Part shown: positions 41,887-54,480 of the stretch, in pieces
How positions within the stretch are numbered: the stretch's first letter is position 1
How the letters are laid out: every line of letters begins with the position of its first letter
Assembly: GCA_945862245.1 (NCBI GenBank)
Contig: CAMAXN010000001.1
Coordinates: 62,001 to 126,000, forward strand
Reading direction: 5' to 3'
Length of the DNA: 64,000 nucleotides
Origin: Prosthecobacter debontii
GTDB taxonomy: Bacteria > Verrucomicrobiota > Verrucomicrobiia > Verrucomicrobiales > Akkermansiaceae
The notes under the pieces: model-generated
The model's input: the letters and a program-made list of their open reading frames with translations, nothing else
What the model was told of the DNA's origin: nothing
The model's database searches: none
Translations under genes and position numbers: made by a program

Positions 41887-44800
41887 ATGAAACACCTGCG
41901 CACCGCACTTTCCGCTGCATTCCTGCTGGCCATTGCCCCTGCCACCTTTGGAGCCGCTGCTTTCCAAGCCTTCGAAGGTGATGGCTTTGATGACTGGCAG
42001 GTGACCGGCACCGCCTTCGGACTCTCTCCGGTCCATGGTAAGTATGATGGGATGAAAACGGATATTAAGGCGTACGCCAACGAAGCCTTCGCGCTTTCCG
42101 CCCACGGCGGTATGGATGCGATCGGGACGTTGACCTCGGCGGAGTTTACCATCACCCAGAACTACATCGCTTTCCTCATAGCGGGCGGCAATCAAGCCAG
42201 TAAAACCTGTGTCCAACTTATTGTGGATGGCAAGGTTGCAATGGAGGCAACGGGAAAGCGCAGCCCCATCTTTCAATCCGTGCAATTCGATGTCACCGAA
42301 CTAAAAGGAAAGAAGGCGCGCTTGCGGGCGGTGGATGATGCCAAGGGCGACTGGGGCTTCATCGCCCTAGATCATGTAATTTTCACCAACAACGCGAATG
42401 ATAAATTCCCTTCTTCTACGAATGGCGGAAAACCTTTTGTAGCGGGACTTGTCTCCACACCCGAGCTGGCCGGGGCAACGATACCAGAAGGCACGATATT
42501 GAAAGTGGCTGCAGATTTTAAAAACCAATCAATCAAATCCCCCACCGCGCTTACCTTTGACGAACAGGGTAATATCTACATTGCGGAAACTCACCGTTTC
42601 CGCCACGGCGTCGAGGACGACCGCAACAACCTTTTCTGGTATCTCGATGACCTCGCCGCAAAAACCACGGATGACCGTCTCAAATTGCACGAGAAGTGGT
42701 ATGAAAAAGTTTCCAAGAAATTCATGACAGAGAAATCTGAAGTAATCCGCCGCCTTTCCGATAGTGATGGCGATGGTTCCTTCGACAAAGTCAACGTGTT
42801 CTCCGATGGCTATAATGACGTGCTCGATGGAACGGGTGCCGGCGTATTTTTCTACGACGGCTCGCTCTATTTCGCCTGCATTCCCAAGATCTACAAGCTG
42901 CGCGACACAGATAACGATGGAGCGGCGGATGAGAAAAAGATCGTGGAAGAAGGCTTCGGCGTGCGGATTTCACTTTCCGGCCATGACCTCAACGGCTTCA
43001 CCCTTGGCCCTGACGGGCGCATTTATGGCACAATTGGCGACCGTGGCTATTCGCTGATCACTAAAGAGGGTAAAGAATATGATTACCCGAATGAGGGTGC
43101 GGCGTTTCGTTTCGAGCCGGACGGCACAGGCTTCGAGGTCTTCCACACCGGCCTGCGTAACCCCAAGGAGATCGCCTTCGATGAACTCGGCGATGCTTTC
43201 AGCGTGGATAATAATTCCGACCAAGGCGACAAGGCGCGCATCGTCTATCTCGTTGAGGGCGGCGAGACCGGCTGGCAGATGGAGCATCAGGCGATGCATA
43301 CCTTCCACCGCAACATCGGCCTTGAGAAGCGCCCGCCGAGCCGCTGGATGAACGAACGGATATGGGAGATGCGCAATGATGAACAGCCCGCCTACATTCT
43401 GCCGCCCTCCGCGTTTCTCAGCGCCGGCCCCTCCGGCCTCACTTACCATCCTGGCACCGGTTTCTTGGAAAGCGAAAAAGGCCGCTTTTTGATCTGCGAT
43501 TACAAAGGCGGCGCGGCCAGCTCCGGCATTTGGTCTTTCGAAATGGAACCCGACGGCGCGGGTATGAAAATGTCCGATGCCCGCCAGTTCAACTGGGGAA
43601 TCGCTGCTACCGATGTGGAGTATTCCTTCGACGGCCGCGTATTCATCACCGATTTCGTTACCGGCTGGCAATCCCACGACGAAGGCCGCCTGCTCTCCAT
43701 CAGCGCGGGCGACAACATGTATCTCCCGGATAAAACCAAAGAGGCCGCGAAGCTTATATCCGAAGGCTTCGATCAACGCGAATCCGCCGAACTTGCGAAA
43801 CTCCTCTCTCACGCCGATTCCCGGGTTCGTCTTCGTGCCCAAGTCGCTTTGACCCGTAAGGCGGATGCCATCGCGGTTTTCAAAAAGGCAACGGAATCCG
43901 AAGATCAAATCGAGCGTATTCACGGCCTCTGGGGGCTTGGCATCATCGCCCGCCGTGGCTCAGTCCCGTCGCCCTCGGGCGAATTCACTACCTTGCCGAA
44001 GAAAGGCCTGCGCGAGGACGCCGCAAACACCATTCTTCCACTTCTAAAGGATCCCGATCCGGAAATCCGCGTCCAAGCGCTGCGATCCATAGCCGAGGGG
44101 CCGCTCTCCGGGAACGCACTGCCATTTGGTGCGCTGCTTTTGGATGATTCTTCGCGCGTCCGCTTCGCTGCGGGCATCGCAATCGGAAAAACTAAGGCGA
44201 TCGGTCACTACTCCGCTGTGCTAGATTTGCTAAGGAAAAACAACAATCGCGACCTGTTTCTGCGCCACGCTGGAATCTACGCGCTCGAGCACATGGCTAA
44301 GAATCCCCGGCAAGTTAGCGCACTTACTTCCGATCCCTCGCCCGCCGTCCGCCTCGCCGCGGTTGTCGCATTGCGTCGGATGAAAAGTATTGAGGTCGCC
44401 CGTTTCGTCAAAGACCCTGACCCCAAGGTCCAAGATGAGGTGATTCGCGCGATTCAGGATCTTGATATGATCGACATGCGCCCATTGGTTGCAGAGTTGT
44501 TAGATGATCTTGGAAACCGCAAATGGTCGGACTTCATGCTGCGCCGCCTGATCCACAACGCCTACCGTGTCGGCACGGCGGAGAATGCTGCCCGCATCCT
44601 TGCTGTCGCCGCGAACAAGTCGCTACCCACCGAAGTCCGCGAGGAGTCCCTGCGGCTGATCGGTATGTGGGAGAAACCTTTCCCCGCCGATCAACTCAGC
44701 GGCCATTGGCGTCCGCTTGAGGCGCGCCCGCTTGATACTCTCAAGCCCGCCCTTAAGAAAGCGTTGCCCGTCCTGCTAAAGTCCGATGGGTTCCTGCTCG

Positions 44801-46413
44801 CTGGTACGCTCGCGCTCGTCGACAAATACGAAATCAATATTGCTTCCTTAGATGACGAATCCCTCAGACTCATCGTTACGAAAGCCGAGCTCTCCGGCGA
44901 TGCCCGCGCCAAGGCCCTGACGATTTACATTCGCCGCGATGGGGAAGGTCTCAACGATTTACTCGCACAGGTAGCAACCGATTCCTCCAATGAACTTGCC
45001 GTTACCGCGCTCGATGAATTGGCGAAGCGCGATCCGCAGGCCGCTCTCGCTACCGTCGAGGCTGCAGCCAGCTCTGACGACGCTTCACGCGTCCAGAAAG
45101 CATGGGGTGTACTGGCCGGCATTCCGGGAGACGGTGCGGCCGCGTTCATCGCCGCCAGCCTTGGGAAACTCAAGGAAGCGAACGGTGTCTCGCTGGGTGC
45201 TATAGAACTCATCGCCGCGGCAAAATCCCGCAAGGAACCCGCCGTCGCCGCAGCGCTCGCAGTTTACGACAAGGCGGTGGCCGAGAACTCAGATCCGCTT
45301 GCGAAATACAACATTTCCCTTGAAGGCGGCGACCCCGTCAAAGGTGCGGCTCTGTTCGGATCACATCCCGTGGGTCAATGCATGCGCTGCCACAAGGCGG
45401 AGGACAAAGCGCACGCTGGAGGTGGGGACGCCGGCCCCAACCTAGCCGGAATTGCGAAACGCCATGATCGCCGTTACCTTCTGGAGTCCATCGTGAACCC
45501 CGCCGCCGTGGTAACTCCCGGTTACGGCATCACCTCGGTCACGTTCAAAAACGGGGCGACTCTCGGTGGATCGATGGTGGCGCAGACCCCAGATCATCTC
45601 GACATCGTTACCCCCGAGAAATTGCTCCGCATCAATCGCACGGACATCGAGTCATTTACTCCGCCGGTTTCCGCGATGCAGCCGATGGGCGATCTCATCA
45701 AGCCCGAGGAGACCCGGGATCTCGTAGCGTGGCTGGACTCGCTCACCAAGGAACAGGAAAAAATACCGGACAGGAAACCGGAGATCGTCGATCCTTCGAA
45801 ACTCCCCGGCACGAAACCGCAGTCGAGCAACAAACCTTTCGAACAGACCCTGATCCCCATCGCGACCGGAGGGGATGCCGCCGCAGAACCCGTCGCGCCC
45901 ATCGATCCGAAACTCGGCGCGCAACAATACATGCTTTGCGGTGCCTGCCACGGCCAGCAGGGCGAAGGCACCGCCGCTGCTCCGCCCCTTGCCGGATCGG
46001 AATGGGTAACCGGCTCGGCGGAGAACCTAATCCGAATCCAGCTCCGCGGCCTCACCGGCCCAATCAAGGTAAAGGGCAAGGAATACAATTTTCCCGTCGG
46101 GATGATGGCCATGGCCTATCAGACCGACGAGCAGATCGCCGCCGTGCTTACGCATGTCCGCTCCAATTTCGGTAACAAAGCCGCCCCCGTGACTGCTATC
46201 GATGTCGCCGCTCTTCGCAGCGAGGTGGGAAAACCACAGCTCATCGTCACAGATTTGATTCAGCCGGAGCTGCCCTCAGTACTGGAAAAGACAGCCGACG
46301 TGAAAGAATCTAAATATCAAAATATGAAATCCTCGTCTGGATTGCCTCCATGGGTATTTACCGGAATTGGTTTTTTCGCCTTAGTCTGTATTGTAGGCGT
46401 ATTCAGGAAGTGA
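41887..46413 (+). CDS. PVC-type membrane-anchored multidomain dehydrogenase-like protein with HEAT repeats and two cytochrome c motifs
   Basis: Propeller-like IYIAETHRFRHGVEDD...DGRIYGTIGDRGYS; HEAT-like DPDPEIRVQALRSIAEGP; CMRCH and CGACH; C-terminal TM WVFTGIGFFALVCIVGVF. Confidence 0.88.
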   Translation: MKHLRTALSAAFLLAIAPATFGAAAFQAFEGDGFDDWQVTGTAFGLSPVHGKYDGMKTDIKAYANEAFALSAHGGMDAIGTLTSAEFTITQNYIAFLIAGGNQASKTCVQLIVDGKVAMEATGKRSPIFQSVQFDVTELKGKKARLRAVDDAKGDWGFIALDHVIFTNNANDKFPSSTNGGKPFVAGLVSTPELAGATIPEGTILKVAADFKNQSIKSPTALTFDEQGNIYIAETHRFRHGVEDDRNNLFWYLDDLAAKTTDDRLKLHEKWYEKVSKKFMTEKSEVIRRLSDSDGDGSFDKVNVFSDGYNDVLDGTGAGVFFYDGSLYFACIPKIYKLRDTDNDGAADEKKIVEEGFGVRISLSGHDLNGFTLGPDGRIYGTIGDRGYSLITKEGKEYDYPNEGAAFRFEPDGTGFEVFHTGLRNPKEIAFDELGDAFSVDNNSDQGDKARIVYLVEGGETGWQMEHQAMHTFHRNIGLEKRPPSRWMNERIWEMRNDEQPAYILPPSAFLSAGPSGLTYHPGTGFLESEKGRFLICDYKGGAASSGIWSFEMEPDGAGMKMSDARQFNWGIAATDVEYSFDGRVFITDFVTGWQSHDEGRLLSISAGDNMYLPDKTKEAAKLISEGFDQRESAELAKLLSHADSRVRLRAQVALTRKADAIAVFKKATESEDQIERIHGLWGLGIIARRGSVPSPSGEFTTLPKKGLREDAANTILPLLKDPDPEIRVQALRSIAEGPLSGNALPFGALLLDDSSRVRFAAGIAIGKTKAIGHYSAVLDLLRKNNNRDLFLRHAGIYALEHMAKNPRQVSALTSDPSPAVRLAAVVALRRMKSIEVARFVKDPDPKVQDEVIRAIQDLDMIDMRPLVAELLDDLGNRKWSDFMLRRLIHNAYRVGTAENAARILAVAANKSLPTEVREESLRLIGMWEKPFPADQLSGHWRPLEARPLDTLKPALKKALPVLLKSDGFLLAGTLALVDKYEINIASLDDESLRLIVTKAELSGDARAKALTIYIRRDGEGLNDLLAQVATDSSNELAVTALDELAKRDPQAALATVEAAASSDDASRVQKAWGVLAGIPGDGAAAFIAASLGKLKEANGVSLGAIELIAAAKSRKEPAVAAALAVYDKAVAENSDPLAKYNISLEGGDPVKGAALFGSHPVGQCMRCHKAEDKAHAGGGDAGPNLAGIAKRHDRRYLLESIVNPAAVVTPGYGITSVTFKNGATLGGSMVAQTPDHLDIVTPEKLLRINRTDIESFTPPVSAMQPMGDLIKPEETRDLVAWLDSLTKEQEKIPDRKPEIVDPSKLPGTKPQSSNKPFEQTLIPIATGGDAAAEPVAPIDPKLGAQQYMLCGACHGQQGEGTAAAPPLAGSEWVTGSAENLIRIQLRGLTGPIKVKGKEYNFPVGMMAMAYQTDEQIAAVLTHVRSNFGNKAAPVTAIDVAALRSEVGKPQLIVTDLIQPELPSVLEKTADVKESKYQNMKSSSGLPPWVFTGIGFFALVCIVGVFRK

Positions 46414-47373: not shown

Positions 47374-47952
47374 ATGTCCGCGATCGAATCCCCCGTCAAA
47401 AGCTCACCCGCCGCCGCCGCATGGCGCGAGTGGTTGGAGGAGCACGCTCCGAAATTGTTCCTTTTTGCCAGAAACCAGACCCGCACCTATCAGGATGCTC
47501 AGGATGTACTCCAGGACGCTATAGTAAAACTTATGGATAAAATCCGCGGCGGTGAGTTCGTGGGAGGACAGGACGCATGGCCGCCATACTTATATGCGAC
47601 CATACGCAGGCTCGCTATCGACCTCTCACGAAAAGACGATCGCCGTAAGCGCCGCGAGGATAATGTTTCCGCCGACCTTGAGGCGGGGCAGTTCGAAGCG
47701 TTCCATCCGTGGTTCGATAGCGAAGGGTGCAACGATGAAACGCGCTTACAGCTTGAGGGTGCACTGAAATCGCTCCCAGATAAATTTTCCGAAGTGATCA
47801 TAATGAAGATCTGGGGCGAGAAAACCTTTGCGGAAATTGGTGAGGTATTAGGAATTTCCCAAAACACGGCAGCCTCCCGGTATCGCTATGGTCTCGAAGC
47901 ATTGAAGCGCGAACTCGGCACAGCCCATCGCAGGGGAGATCTTACCCTTTAA
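47374..47952 (+). CDS. ECF-type RNA polymerase sigma factor
   Basis: AQDVLQDAIVKLMD region 2; LPDKFSEVIIMKIWGEKTFAEIGEVLGISQNTAASRYRYGLEALKREL region 4. Confidence 0.92.
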   Translation: MSAIESPVKSSPAAAAWREWLEEHAPKLFLFARNQTRTYQDAQDVLQDAIVKLMDKIRGGEFVGGQDAWPPYLYATIRRLAIDLSRKDDRRKRREDNVSADLEAGQFEAFHPWFDSEGCNDETRLQLEGALKSLPDKFSEVIIMKIWGEKTFAEIGEVLGISQNTAASRYRYGLEALKRELGTAHRRGDLTL

Positions 47953-47980
47953 GTTCGCACAGGAGAATCAGCAAACCACC

Positions 47981-48640
47981 ATGTCCAAAATGCCTACCAT
48001 CACTGAGCAGGAGCTCAGCAATCTTCAGCCTACAGGCCTCGATGAGGATTTCCTCGCACGTCTCACTGCCTGTGCGGACGGGACAGATCTGAACATCACT
48101 GAGGGTGAGGCTGTGTTTGAGGCACACCTCCGCGCGCTTCGCCCTAGACCAATCCCTGGCACTCTTAAGACTTCTCTTCTCAACGCGCTGGGTGATACGC
48201 CCTTCGCGCTAGATGAGATAATCGTCCTATTCAATAAGCCTTCCTCCGCCTCGGTCATGTCCGGCAAGAAACTCAGTGCTTTCCGGTTCAATGTCGCCGC
48301 CGCCGCTGTTGCACTGCTCGGATCACTCACCGCTTTCCTAATTCCTGAAGGAATCAGAAAAGGCCAAAGTGCTGAAACTGGGGATGCAACCGGATTCGTC
48401 CCCGCACCGATTACTAACACGCCCTCGCAGATCAAAACCGCGCCTTCGCAGATTGCTCCGGCCTCCATCAGTAGCCATACCCGCGATGAGGGAGTGATCT
48501 GGAGCGATAAGAACCAGCCTCACCGTATACTACGCCGCATCTATATGGATCAGGTGCTAACAAAGGATGCCGCTGGCAATTTCTTCCCCGAGCTGCGTCC
48601 GCGTGTGGAATACGTGATCATTCCCGATAAAATTGACTGA
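47981..48640 (+). CDS. Single-pass membrane protein, putative anti-sigma factor
   Basis: Cytoplasmic N-terminus, TM VAAAAVALLGSLTAFLIP, periplasmic tail; directly downstream of the sigma gene. Confidence 0.6.
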   Translation: MSKMPTITEQELSNLQPTGLDEDFLARLTACADGTDLNITEGEAVFEAHLRALRPRPIPGTLKTSLLNALGDTPFALDEIIVLFNKPSSASVMSGKKLSAFRFNVAAAAVALLGSLTAFLIPEGIRKGQSAETGDATGFVPAPITNTPSQIKTAPSQIAPASISSHTRDEGVIWSDKNQPHRILRRIYMDQVLTKDAAGNFFPELRPRVEYVIIPDKID

Positions 48641-48695
48641 TTTTCCGCAAAAACATCTAACATCTACTATGCATATAGTTACTGATACATCAGAC

Positions 48696-49649
48696 ATGAA
48701 AATAAAATTCAGATCTTTTCCCGCCGCACGTATTATTGTTGGCCTTGCTATTTTTCCGTTTGCACTTCTGTCCGCGATTGAGTCGCCGCCTGACACCTCA
48801 AAGCCGCCCGCCGCTATGCTCAGTGCAGAACAGGCAGAGCGTGAATCCGCTGCAAAGCTTCCTTTCTTGGGCCTCTCCACTGCTATCGTTCCGGATATTG
48901 TCGCGGATCATCTCGGCCTTAGGACAGGATCCGGACTCATTGTCCGAAGCATCTCCCCCGACAGTCCTGCAGAGAAGGCCGGACTGTCGGAAAACGAAAT
49001 TATTGTTTCCATCGATGGCACAGTTGTGGGGGATCCAGATGAATTCAGCTCAAGGATACGCAAGTACAAGGCGGGTGACAGCATTGACCTTGGCATCATC
49101 CGCAAAGGTAAACCGCATTCAGTGAAAGTGACCCTATGCGAACGCCCTGCGGAACTTGAAGCACACCTTTCACCAGAACCGTTCATGCAGGGCTCCCCCC
49201 AAGGCCAAGCAGACCTGCGGAAGATGATGGAGCGGAACTTACTTGGATTAGGGATGGATCCATTCGGCATCGCGCCTCACCAGGAGTTCGAGAACACCTT
49301 TCGAATGCTGCGTCAACAGATGAACCGGGCTTTCGATAGCGAAATTCCACCCATAACCCAAGGTGAAGATGGTGGGGTTCATTTCCAACAAAATTCGACG
49401 GTACGCCTGATGGACAATCAAGGTTCTGTGGAGATCAAATCTTCCGAAGGCGACACTCAGGTCACCGTCAGGGACACGGCCAATGCCGTAGTTTGGCAGG
49501 GCCCTTGGAACTCAGACAACGACAAGGAAGCCGCACCGCAGGATGTCCGTGAGAGAATAGACCAAGTGAATGTCGGCTCTGCGAACGGAAAGGGTTTTAC
49601 CTTCCGTTTCGGTAAGTCTAACGGGAAACCCGACACCATCGACAACTGA
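48696..49649 (+). CDS. PDZ-domain protein without a protease domain
   Basis: LIVRSISPDSPAEKAGLSENEIIVSIDGTVVGDPDEFSSRIRKYKAGDSIDLGIIRKG. Start within the 48633 ORF is uncertain. Confidence 0.82.
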   Translation: MKIKFRSFPAARIIVGLAIFPFALLSAIESPPDTSKPPAAMLSAEQAERESAAKLPFLGLSTAIVPDIVADHLGLRTGSGLIVRSISPDSPAEKAGLSENEIIVSIDGTVVGDPDEFSSRIRKYKAGDSIDLGIIRKGKPHSVKVTLCERPAELEAHLSPEPFMQGSPQGQADLRKMMERNLLGLGMDPFGIAPHQEFENTFRMLRQQMNRAFDSEIPPITQGEDGGVHFQQNSTVRLMDNQGSVEIKSSEGDTQVTVRDTANAVVWQGPWNSDNDKEAAPQDVRERIDQVNVGSANGKGFTFRFGKSNGKPDTIDN

Positions 49650-49817: not shown

Positions 49818-51668
49818 TCAATGCATATTTTCCATCAAGCTGCCTAGGACTTTCAAAAATTGCGGGTCACCAAGGTTGCCGAGGTGTCCGCCGGTCGGTA
49901 GCCAAACTGCACGATTCCCGAATGTGGATTCCATCCAACGCATGTCTTTTAGGGAGATAAGAAAGTCATTGCGATTACTCATTACATGCACATGACGGTT
50001 CGCACTCAGGGAGCGCTGCATTGAACGAAGCGAGGTTGAGTTCAGTAATTGCTTCTCACTCACCCCTTTCTCCTGCTGCTGAGGTACCAGCCAGTACTTG
50101 AGGTAATCGTCGAAACCGAAGTTCATGAGCTCGTGATATGTATCCTGGCGCCGCCATGTGGAAGCAGGCGTGGAAATGAGATCTGAAGGCGTGCGCCGGT
50201 GTATGCTGTAAAGCGTATCTCGCATCACGGTCCGGAATGCGAAACCCACAAGCAACTGCGATTCATCGGCACTAAATGGTGGCAAGCCTTCAGGGGGGCG
50301 TTGATCGATTAATGCCGCCGCCTTGTGGAGGGCGTTATCGAGTCGTTGGGCGCGCACCGCTTCTGACCAAGATGTTGGCACTGCGTAAAACTCATCAAGT
50401 GTACGGTATGCCTGCCTCAGGTCGACCGGTGGTTGGATTGCGAGGTAGTGGTCGAACTGGACGGATCCCGGTGCATGAGCCGTCTTGGTAGCTGCCAGTT
50501 GCAGTGCGGAAAAACCACCGAGAGAGAATCCTACGAGGATGTGCTTCGTCACATGCCCAGGGTGTTTATTGACAACCGAATCATTGATCGCCGTAAAGGT
50601 GGCGAGAAGATCCGTACGATCTGTCACTGGATTACCCGGCATGGATGAGGAAGATGCACATTCCATGAACTCCGGATGGAATATGCCAGAAATCGTTGCT
50701 ACTGAAAATCCCATATTAAAGATCGCCTCAGCCAGAACCATGGCGTTACCCGACATGCGGTGCGAGCCGATTCCCGGGCTTAGGAAAACCAGAGGGGCCG
50801 GCTGTTTCTGCATCCACGCCTGATAAGGTAATTCCTTGCCCGTATGTGGCAGCCGCACCAGATGTCTTTTCCCGCTTGCGGCAAACCATGGATCGTTGGG
50901 TTTGTATCGCGCCGCCGCCAGCGTTTCCATTGTCGGAAAATCTGGTGTGCCGTGAGGTGTCCAGTCCGGCGATGTTGGGCGCGAGAGATACGGCCACGCT
51001 TGGCGAATTAACTCATAGGAGTCTGATTCGGTGCGCATGATGCTCGCTACCGGCGGGATGATATCGCTCAGTTGGTGTACCCGGGAAGCAATTAGCGCGA
51101 ACTCAAGGTTGGAAACATAAGTTATGGGATCACCAACCACATCCATAGCGCGGGCTGTTGCTGCCACGTTGTCGCTGGGGCCAAGAAATGGCAATACCAC
51201 GAAGGTATCCGGTTGCCAGCCCCAGTGTTGGAATGTCTGGTTGAAGCTCCCCCGGCTACCAGGCAGATTCATGCGATCCGCTACATCGAATAATCCGCCA
51301 ATACCCACGGTCGTATTTGTGAGGAATCTCAATGATTCTTCGCCGGAGTCGTTCCAACGCCCCTGGAGGATCTGGTTCGTGATGCGCAGCGGGCCGGTTA
51401 GGTTATCGTGTAAGCTGCTGATTGACTTCCGCACCGGTTCCGGGATAACGGTTAGGTAAACGTTGGTCGCAGGCTCAAGAACGCCAAGCGTCAAGCCACG
51501 GTTCAGTTCCCAAGTGGCGCGGTTTATCGGCTCGAGTGGGTCGCTTATGTGCTTCCTCGTTTTTGTTTTCACCAAAGAGGTGGGGGCGATTCCTCCGCAG
51601 GATACTGCCAAAACGGCCGATAGCAAAATCATCGGCAATTCCAGCTTATGTGCACTTAAATTACTCAT
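49818..51668 (-). CDS. MlaA (VacJ)-like lipoprotein fused to an alpha/beta-hydrolase
   Basis: N-term DPLEPINRATWELNRG...YLTVIPEPVRKSISSLHDNLTGPLRITNQILQGRW...LPGSRGSFNQTFQHWGW; C-term LVFLSPGIGSHRMSG, nucleophile elbow LVGFSLGGFSAL, candidate NDFLISL Asp and TGGHLGN His. Confidence 0.85.
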   Translation of the reverse strand: MSNLSAHKLELPMILLSAVLAVSCGGIAPTSLVKTKTRKHISDPLEPINRATWELNRGLTLGVLEPATNVYLTVIPEPVRKSISSLHDNLTGPLRITNQILQGRWNDSGEESLRFLTNTTVGIGGLFDVADRMNLPGSRGSFNQTFQHWGWQPDTFVVLPFLGPSDNVAATARAMDVVGDPITYVSNLEFALIASRVHQLSDIIPPVASIMRTESDSYELIRQAWPYLSRPTSPDWTPHGTPDFPTMETLAAARYKPNDPWFAASGKRHLVRLPHTGKELPYQAWMQKQPAPLVFLSPGIGSHRMSGNAMVLAEAIFNMGFSVATISGIFHPEFMECASSSSMPGNPVTDRTDLLATFTAINDSVVNKHPGHVTKHILVGFSLGGFSALQLAATKTAHAPGSVQFDHYLAIQPPVDLRQAYRTLDEFYAVPTSWSEAVRAQRLDNALHKAAALIDQRPPEGLPPFSADESQLLVGFAFRTVMRDTLYSIHRRTPSDLISTPASTWRRQDTYHELMNFGFDDYLKYWLVPQQQEKGVSEKQLLNSTSLRSMQRSLSANRHVHVMSNRNDFLISLKDMRWMESTFGNRAVWLPTGGHLGNLGDPQFLKVLGSLMENMH

Positions 51669-51784: not shown

Positions 51785-52070
51785 GAAGCAGATTGTGCCG
51801 TTTACCCTCTTGCTGGAGCGAGTCCAAAGGCGAACTCCTTGGGCGTCTTCATGCTGAGGCTCCGATCACACCCCGCGCCTCGCTCAACGTATAAAATAGC
51901 TCGCGAACAAAGCACTTTCTTTGAAACTTGTCATAGAAGCTCTCGACGTAGCCGTTCTGCCGCAGTAAGCACGAATCAATGTAGAGGATTTTGATGGTTG
52001 TTTCGGTCAGCCCAGACACCTTGGCCGTGCCGAGCTCAGCATGTTCAATACTCAGATCCACGACGGCCAC
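51785..52070 (-). mobile_element. IS3-family transposase (integrase core) remnant
   Basis: IKILYIDSCLLRQNGYVESFYDKFQRKCFVRELFYTLSEARGVI, then in another frame SLSMKTPKEFAFGLAPARG*; internal deletion and frameshift. Confidence 0.85.
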
Positions 52071-53322: not shown

Positions 53323-54399
53323 TCATTTCATGGAATTACCTGTCATCATCGTCCAGTGGATGCCGGAGATTCCGACACCCAGAGTATCGCCGCCGCCGAA
53401 CATGATGAAGCGGTGTCCGTCCGATCCGAACCAACCCGCGTATGCGGCGGAGTGGCTCGTAGATCCCATGAAAATATTCTCGCCGCCCCCGTTACCAGCG
53501 AAGCCTGCCAGCCGTGCGCGATCCCACGGGCTCTTCTTTTTGGGTACCGGCGATTCGTGGGCGAAGAACCCGAGATTTGACATATCTGAACTGTGTCCCT
53601 TGCACGCATCGGAGAGCTTTTCCTCCATGATTCTAGGGGGTAGCCCAAGGAGTGCACGCTCCTTGTTGAGCAAGTTGGCGAAGTCTTTCATCGCGCTCGA
53701 TGCCCAGCGCCCGAGATCGGAATGAGCTTTCTCCGCTTCCATATGTATTTTCACCTCGTTTATTGTCGCGGCAAGGCGCTCGCGCTGCATTAGTAGATCT
53801 TTTCCCTCCGAGTTTTCTTCTAAGAGAAAGCCCCGCAGATCCCCATCCTCGATCGAAGCGCTTTCCAATCTATCGTCAAATTGCTCCAACTCGCGGGTCA
53901 CTTCCGCAAGTCCTTCTAGCGTGGCATCTACCAAGGAGTCGAATCTCTCCGTGGACGGACCAGCCAATCGGTTCACGCGTTCCCGTAACTTTTCTAAGTC
54001 CTCCATCTCCTCGCGTAGCATCTGCACCTTTTTTCCGTCCTTTTCCCAATCCGTCATGATCAGACTCATCACGCGCTTGCGTTCGGCATCGAGCTCGCCT
54101 GCCAATTCGTGGTGGGAGGCGTAAGGATTGATTACGCTTGAGCGTCCGCGCACCGCTTCTTCGAGCGCTTTGTTATGCTGCTGTTGTGCGAACTCCAGCG
54201 CCCTCTGGTATTGAGGCATGGCATCGGCTCCCATTTGCTTCCAAGATAAATATGCCGCATTCCGTTTGTCCGCCTCGGCGGAGAGCATCCAACGGTTCGC
54301 GACTTTCGTGAAGTCCTGAGGAAGCACGCCCTGGGACTCCTGACCATAAACCGCAAACTGGAGCGAAAAAATGAGAATGAGAGGCAGGAAACCATTCAT
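53323..54399 (-). CDS. Secreted CAP/SCP-domain protein
   Basis: LSDACKGHSSDMSNLGFFAHESP...GGGENIFMG...AAYAGWFGSDGHRFIMFG. Confidence 0.85.
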   Translation of the reverse strand: MNGFLPLILIFSLQFAVYGQESQGVLPQDFTKVANRWMLSAEADKRNAAYLSWKQMGADAMPQYQRALEFAQQQHNKALEEAVRGRSSVINPYASHHELAGELDAERKRVMSLIMTDWEKDGKKVQMLREEMEDLEKLRERVNRLAGPSTERFDSLVDATLEGLAEVTRELEQFDDRLESASIEDGDLRGFLLEENSEGKDLLMQRERLAATINEVKIHMEAEKAHSDLGRWASSAMKDFANLLNKERALLGLPPRIMEEKLSDACKGHSSDMSNLGFFAHESPVPKKKSPWDRARLAGFAGNGGGENIFMGSTSHSAAYAGWFGSDGHRFIMFGGGDTLGVGISGIHWTMMTGNSMK

Positions 54400-54480
54400 G
54401 GCGTGTGGGAGCTGAGTGAACTCTACCCTGTTAGGCGAAGGATTTACTCGCAAATATTTGCGAATCCCACCGTCCGTACT

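Follow-up and report, generated by a model that had tools for sequence, protein, structure and literature searches.

A natural MlaA-MlaY fusion in Verrucomicrobiales, a likely one-polypeptide version of the MlaYZ lipid-asymmetry pathway

Here, we describe a gene of Prosthecobacter debontii that joins an MlaA domain and an MlaY-type alpha/beta-hydrolase domain in one protein of 616 amino acids. It lies in a window of 64,000 nucleotides, which is the whole stretch of DNA that was analysed. We consider it likely (probability about 0.8) that this gene packs the MlaYZ pathway of outer-membrane lipid asymmetry into one polypeptide. MlaYZ of Pseudomonas aeruginosa was reportedly described by Guest et al. 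in PNAS in 2023 (doi 10.1073/pnas.2302546120). The MlaA paralogue MlaZ is proposed to extract mislocalised outer-leaflet phospholipids and hand them to the lipase MlaY (PMC11131202, PMC12569750, PMC10474453). Evidence for MlaY itself is mainly genetic in these papers, and in P. aeruginosa that has lost MlaY, sphingosine no longer induces cardiolipin breakdown (PMC11977310). A full-text literature search, with the primary MlaYZ paper outside its coverage, found no report of a fused MlaA-MlaY form. Thus, MlaYZ is already known and the fused form appears new, an earlier mention being possible.

Architecture of the fusion protein

The fusion gene occupies positions 49818..51668 on the minus strand (stop codon included), starts with ATG, and is unbroken along its full length; its architecture is conserved. 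The original prediction, which was made from the sequence alone, had read this stretch as one uninterrupted frame with an MlaA/VacJ domain at the N-terminus and a serine-hydrolase-like domain at the C-terminus, and the analysis bears out all three points.

The protein begins with a signal peptide (51597..51668, minus strand) ending in a lipobox-like LAVSC motif, in which Cys24 is the candidate lipidation site. Most fusions of the same family retain this cysteine in an alignment of 18 fusions. In E. coli, the residue at position +2 steers lipoprotein sorting (the +2 rule), and the glycine that follows Cys24 fits sorting to the outer membrane. One fusion from elsewhere (L018, from genome G051) has a signal peptide that lacks the lipobox cysteine (LSLIGGLQAQTS), so that the fusion is probably not lipidated in that family.

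The MlaA domain spans residues 42-225 (50994..51545, minus strand). It matches Pfam family PF04333 with E=1.3e-47 and 162.4 bits, against a cut-off of 25, over profile positions 2-188 of 195, and solved MlaA structures in the PDB match it with E-values down to 2.9e-12. It is followed by a linker of residues 226-266 (50871..50993, minus strand), delimited by the domain boundaries, in which AlphaFold2 predicts one helix (244-254). The hydrolase domain comprises residues 267-615 (49824..50870, minus strand). Here the separate profile searches proposed with the original prediction gave an unequal result. The MlaA match is strong, while hydrolase matches fall below the Pfam threshold for the whole protein (Abhydrolase_6, E=3.6e-4) and barely pass it when the domain is searched alone (26.5 bits, cut-off 26.3). 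All of these are generic alpha/beta-hydrolase matches, which rules out assignment to a known Pfam or NCBIfam lipase family. Because the C-terminal matches are so weak, structure modelling was required.

The full-length AlphaFold2 model (18 homologues; pLDDT 81.8, pTM 0.80) recovers both folds. Foldseek aligns it with MlaA structure 5nuo (E=7.6e-7, TM 0.78 by target length, rmsd 3.2), so that the MlaA ring fold is present in the predicted model, and also with many alpha/beta-hydrolases, monoglyceride lipases first. Modelled alone, the hydrolase domain is predicted with high confidence (pLDDT 93.2, pTM 0.92), and the structures closest to it include monoglyceride lipases, the membrane phospholipase A 6i8w, and assorted esterases. 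Substrate specificity cannot be read from this modelled fold.

The original prediction had also picked out the predicted catalytic residues correctly: Ser382 in the GFSLG elbow (50523..50525), Asp568 in SNRNDF (49965..49967), and His595 in GGHLGN (49884..49886), all on the minus strand, as the nucleophile, acid, and base. They are invariant in the 18 aligned fusions and also in 23 hydrolase sequences. The strand order of the model places Ser382 at the nucleophile elbow, Asp568 past a late core strand, and His595 past the last. The final glycine of GxSxG is likewise invariant among the 18 fusions, as are G299, H303, and R304, which are presumed to be oxyanion loop residues. Between core strands E407-411 and E560-565, the model has a mostly helical insertion (residues 417-560; 49989..50420, minus strand), which is probably a cap or lid above the active site.

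Relationship to MlaYZ and its separate-gene form

Outside Verrucomicrobiota, the hydrolase has a gene of its own, and a second mlaA gene follows directly downstream. A genome scan found the match split in this way in a gammaproteobacterial MAG, a MAG labelled Spirochaeta, Pseudomonas sediminis, and Colwellia; at these loci a hydrolase of about 430 amino acids abuts the downstream mlaA or overlaps it by a few bases. When a hydrolase-only profile was run against an even, unbiased sample of 291 genomes from the Pseudomonas class, seven genomes gave matches, two of them degraded or fragmentary. In six of the seven, mlaA lies directly downstream, and the contig of the seventh stops about 250 bases past the gene. 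The MlaA linked to a hydrolase is usually an extra copy, since nine of ten hydrolase-bearing genomes tested hold two or three MlaA copies (G487 has one). In a plasmid collection, all five records inspected, from P. aeruginosa, three Skermanella species, and one Fusobacterium, have the hydrolase directly upstream of mlaA; the P. aeruginosa pair is annotated as an alpha/beta fold hydrolase followed by a VacJ family lipoprotein. On the large Skermanella plasmids (L193, L194, L196), the pair sits between an RND efflux permease with a hypothetical gene and a TamB-domain gene, which makes a lipid-handling operon possible. The Fusobacterium vincentii record (L195, NZ_CP084075.1), labelled a plasmid and 2.1 Mb long, places a pair in Fusobacteriota.

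We take the hydrolase-mlaA pair of P. aeruginosa to be PA3238/PA3239, recognised by its neighbour genes. The residues published as the active site of MlaY, Ser187, Asp388, and His415 (PMC11977310), coincide exactly with the conserved Ser, Asp, and His in the P. aeruginosa hydrolase, and this fit of the numbering confirms the identity of the pair as MlaY/MlaZ. The fusion residues Ser382, Asp568, and His595 align with the same three positions. Furthermore, the fusion hydrolase family matches the MlaY family over 336 columns (hhalign Prob 100, E=1.2e-50), the fusion hydrolase matches P. aeruginosa MlaY directly (BLASTP E=1e-27, 27% identity over 342 columns), and the MlaA half matches MlaZ (E=6e-19). 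An MlaY-type hydrolase is thus paired with an MlaA-family partner in both cases, fused here and as neighbouring genes elsewhere. On the evidence of the matching triad and the match between hydrolase families, the protein appears, from its sequence, to be a natural MlaZ-MlaY fusion with the domain order reversed.

In the best tree, the fusion MlaAs form a clade (100/100) separate from that of the hydrolase-linked MlaZ proteins (100/99). This topology favours independent pairing of MlaA with the hydrolase on two occasions, but the AU test allows a single joint clade (p=0.159). Because the hydrolase belongs to the MlaY family and the MlaA half is not specifically MlaZ in the tree, the protein is best called an MlaA/MlaZ-MlaY fusion, in reversed order relative to the operon.

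The original prediction had proposed that extraction and deacylation are coupled in one polypeptide, uniting a job split between Mla and PldA in E. coli. The idea of coupling is supported by an experimentally studied counterpart, MlaYZ of P. aeruginosa; since the fused hydrolase is homologous to MlaY, MlaYZ is a better comparison than Mla plus PldA. Both systems combine an MlaA-family extractor with an MlaY alpha/beta-hydrolase bearing the same Ser/Asp/His, with hand-over and degradation proposed. They differ in that MlaYZ is encoded by two genes in the order mlaY-mlaZ, and in that MlaYZ cells also carry canonical MlaA/MlaC, whereas the fusion genomes lack MlaC and PldA. PldA (OMPLA) resembles the fusion in its presumed outcome, the breakdown of surface phospholipids, but is a beta-barrel (PF02253), a fold unrelated to that of the fusion hydrolase. 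MlaY has been termed a PldA homologue (PMC11977310); contrary to this, we find that MlaY-family proteins are alpha/beta-hydrolases with no PLA1 (PF02253) match. The Arc3 phospholipase-defence genes, from a paper that includes a vacJ strain (PMC8926400), proved unrelated to the fusion.

Distribution and Mla gene content in Verrucomicrobiales

A search of related genomes for the same fusion, suggested with the original prediction, shows that it recurs. Among the source genome and its relatives it is present in 20 of 59 genomes, 18 of them from the same genus; the gene is truncated by a contig end in one relative (G008) and its frame is broken in another (G010). Across the order, 28 of 282 genomes, each at least 90% complete, encode the full-length fusion, and named carriers include Akkermansiaceae and Verrucomicrobiales MAGs (L032-L036). 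The only fusion from family f3 in the tree (G253, L149) nests with moderate support among those of family f1, and this placement suggests acquisition by horizontal transfer.

The original prediction noted that the window holds no mlaBCDEF genes. A search of the source genome, which is 94.9% complete, for MlaC, MlaE, and MCE (MlaD) proteins found no MlaC (PF05494) and no MlaE. Its single MlaA is the fusion, and its only MCE (MlaD) protein is of PqiB type, with three MCE domains, in an apparent pqiA-pqiB-pqiC-like cluster of which the MCE part was examined. No PldA (PF02253/PLA1) was detected in any of the 59 genomes, nor any match to this family within the fusion protein.

We show that stand-alone mlaA and the fusion differ sharply in their association with mlaC. 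Among genomes of the order, mlaC is present in 42 of 43 with a stand-alone mlaA and in none of 27 with the fusion only, a pattern that is phylogenetically clustered, with nearly all stand-alone cases in one family, so that the tests are not independent. The one exception (G259) holds only an mlaA fragment; in the other 42, mlaC shares a contig with the mlaA match at a gap of no more than 249 bp. In the sole genome with both forms (G243), the stand-alone mlaA adjoins mlaC and the fusion lies on a different contig. An apparent stand-alone MlaA without MlaC in G209 was rejected, as its reading frame leaves the contig end and is of fusion type. Thus, the fusion is the form of MlaA found without MlaC. 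It also does not depend on MlaE, which nine of the 20 fusion genomes in the set of 59 lack.

No conserved gene neighbours were found around the fusion, which stands alone. In the window, a frame just upstream at about 51850-52060 (minus strand) reads RQNGYVESFYDKFQRKCFVRELFYTLSEARGV and looks like the remnant of the end of an IS3-type transposase. Convergent with the fusion gene is a set of genes in a single direction (47374-49649): a sigma-70/ECF-type sigma factor (47374-47952) with a small gene downstream of it, and a gene for a PDZ-domain protein (48633-49649). Farther out are a PVC-typical protein of 1508 amino acids with DUF7133, HEAT repeats, and cytochrome c domains (41887-46413), and a protein of 376 amino acids (53323-54453) that has a CAP domain at its C-terminus and is charged and coiled-coil-like over a long N-terminal part.

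Proposed mechanism and its alternatives

The MlaA domain is shared with canonical Mla (MlaA, MlaC, MlaBDEF), as is, presumably, the step of extraction at the outer membrane. We propose that the lipid would then go to the fusion's own C-terminal MlaY-type serine hydrolase, not to the shuttle MlaC, that the hydrolase would deacylate it in the periplasm, and that the breakdown products would be recycled or lost. The domains, the triad, homology, and distribution are direct results of the analysis; we infer the topology, lipid hand-over, phospholipid substrate, deacylation, and product fate. In E. coli, the periplasmic base of MlaA is the docking site for MlaC, and the C-terminal tail of MlaA past about residue 227 recruits the shuttle (PMC10719372). 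The lipase joins MlaA after about residue 225, roughly at the site of this tail, and the hydrolase stands where the shuttle would be in a genome without MlaC or MlaE; on the simplest view, the lipid that MlaC would otherwise take goes to the lipase. Loss of the acidic MlaC-recruiting tail was considered as a marker of hydrolase-linked MlaA. It is not diagnostic, because the tail is missing both from hydrolase-linked gammaproteobacterial MlaAs and from verrucomicrobial MlaAs that coexist with MlaC.

The absence of MlaC and PldA, together with a source genome that has no MlaE and no MlaD except the PqiB-type protein, suggests that the fusion probably works by itself as a sink for lipids. Bacteria that carry it probably destroy stray outer-membrane phospholipids on site and do not return them. 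We see even odds for the broader view that, in part of Verrucomicrobiales, a single, self-contained extract-and-destroy protein has taken over from the Mla shuttle and PldA, with no MlaC and, in species such as this one, no Mla transporter; MlaA-MlaY pairing would then occur in two separate lineages. The hand-over from MlaZ to MlaY in Pseudomonas was a proposal, and the fusion in MlaC-less genomes provides independent evolutionary evidence for direct transfer, as well as a one-gene system in which to study MlaC-independent MlaA function.

An unlikely alternative is that the MlaA half uses another transport partner, such as a PqiB- or MCE-type bridge, with the hydrolase limited to trimming or repairing lipids as they pass, for instance in the role of a lysophospholipase or acyltransferase. 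The PqiA/PqiB/PqiC-like cluster retained in the source genome, MlaE in 11 of the 20 fusion genomes, and the monoglyceride lipases among the nearest folds are compatible with such a role; against it, the other nine genomes lack MlaE, none of the 20 has MlaC, and the surroundings of the fusion hold no conserved transport gene. Less probable still is a substrate other than phospholipid (a lipid A acyl group, a lipoprotein acyl group, or an imported ester), with MlaA serving as an anchor or receptor. The unspecific alpha/beta-hydrolase fold would accommodate this, yet the hydrolase is homologous to, and shares its active site with, an enzyme needed for sphingosine-induced cardiolipin breakdown (PMC11977310), and it is tied to MlaA in two different gene arrangements. 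That two unrelated genes were joined by chance or by an artefactual read-through can be dismissed: assembly errors do occur in genome bins and the frame is broken in G010, but the identical architecture recurs across dozens of independent assemblies (the 28 genomes of the order and separate named genomes), the fusions form one well-supported clade, and purifying selection acts on both domains (comparison of the window gene with a 74%-identical relative gives a dN/dS of about 0.10 for MlaA and 0.15 for the hydrolase, at a dS of about 1), which excludes the missed stop weighed in the original prediction.

Canonical Mla is largely proteobacterial, with MlaA, MlaB, and MlaC sparse elsewhere (PMC10665443). 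Our results show that the presence of MlaA alone does not mark the Mla transport pathway as complete, a point of importance to annotation and to surveys based on PF04333. In another genome (G045:C81:14090-14719), an MlaE permease domain lies within an open frame of 802 amino acids, possibly another Mla fusion.
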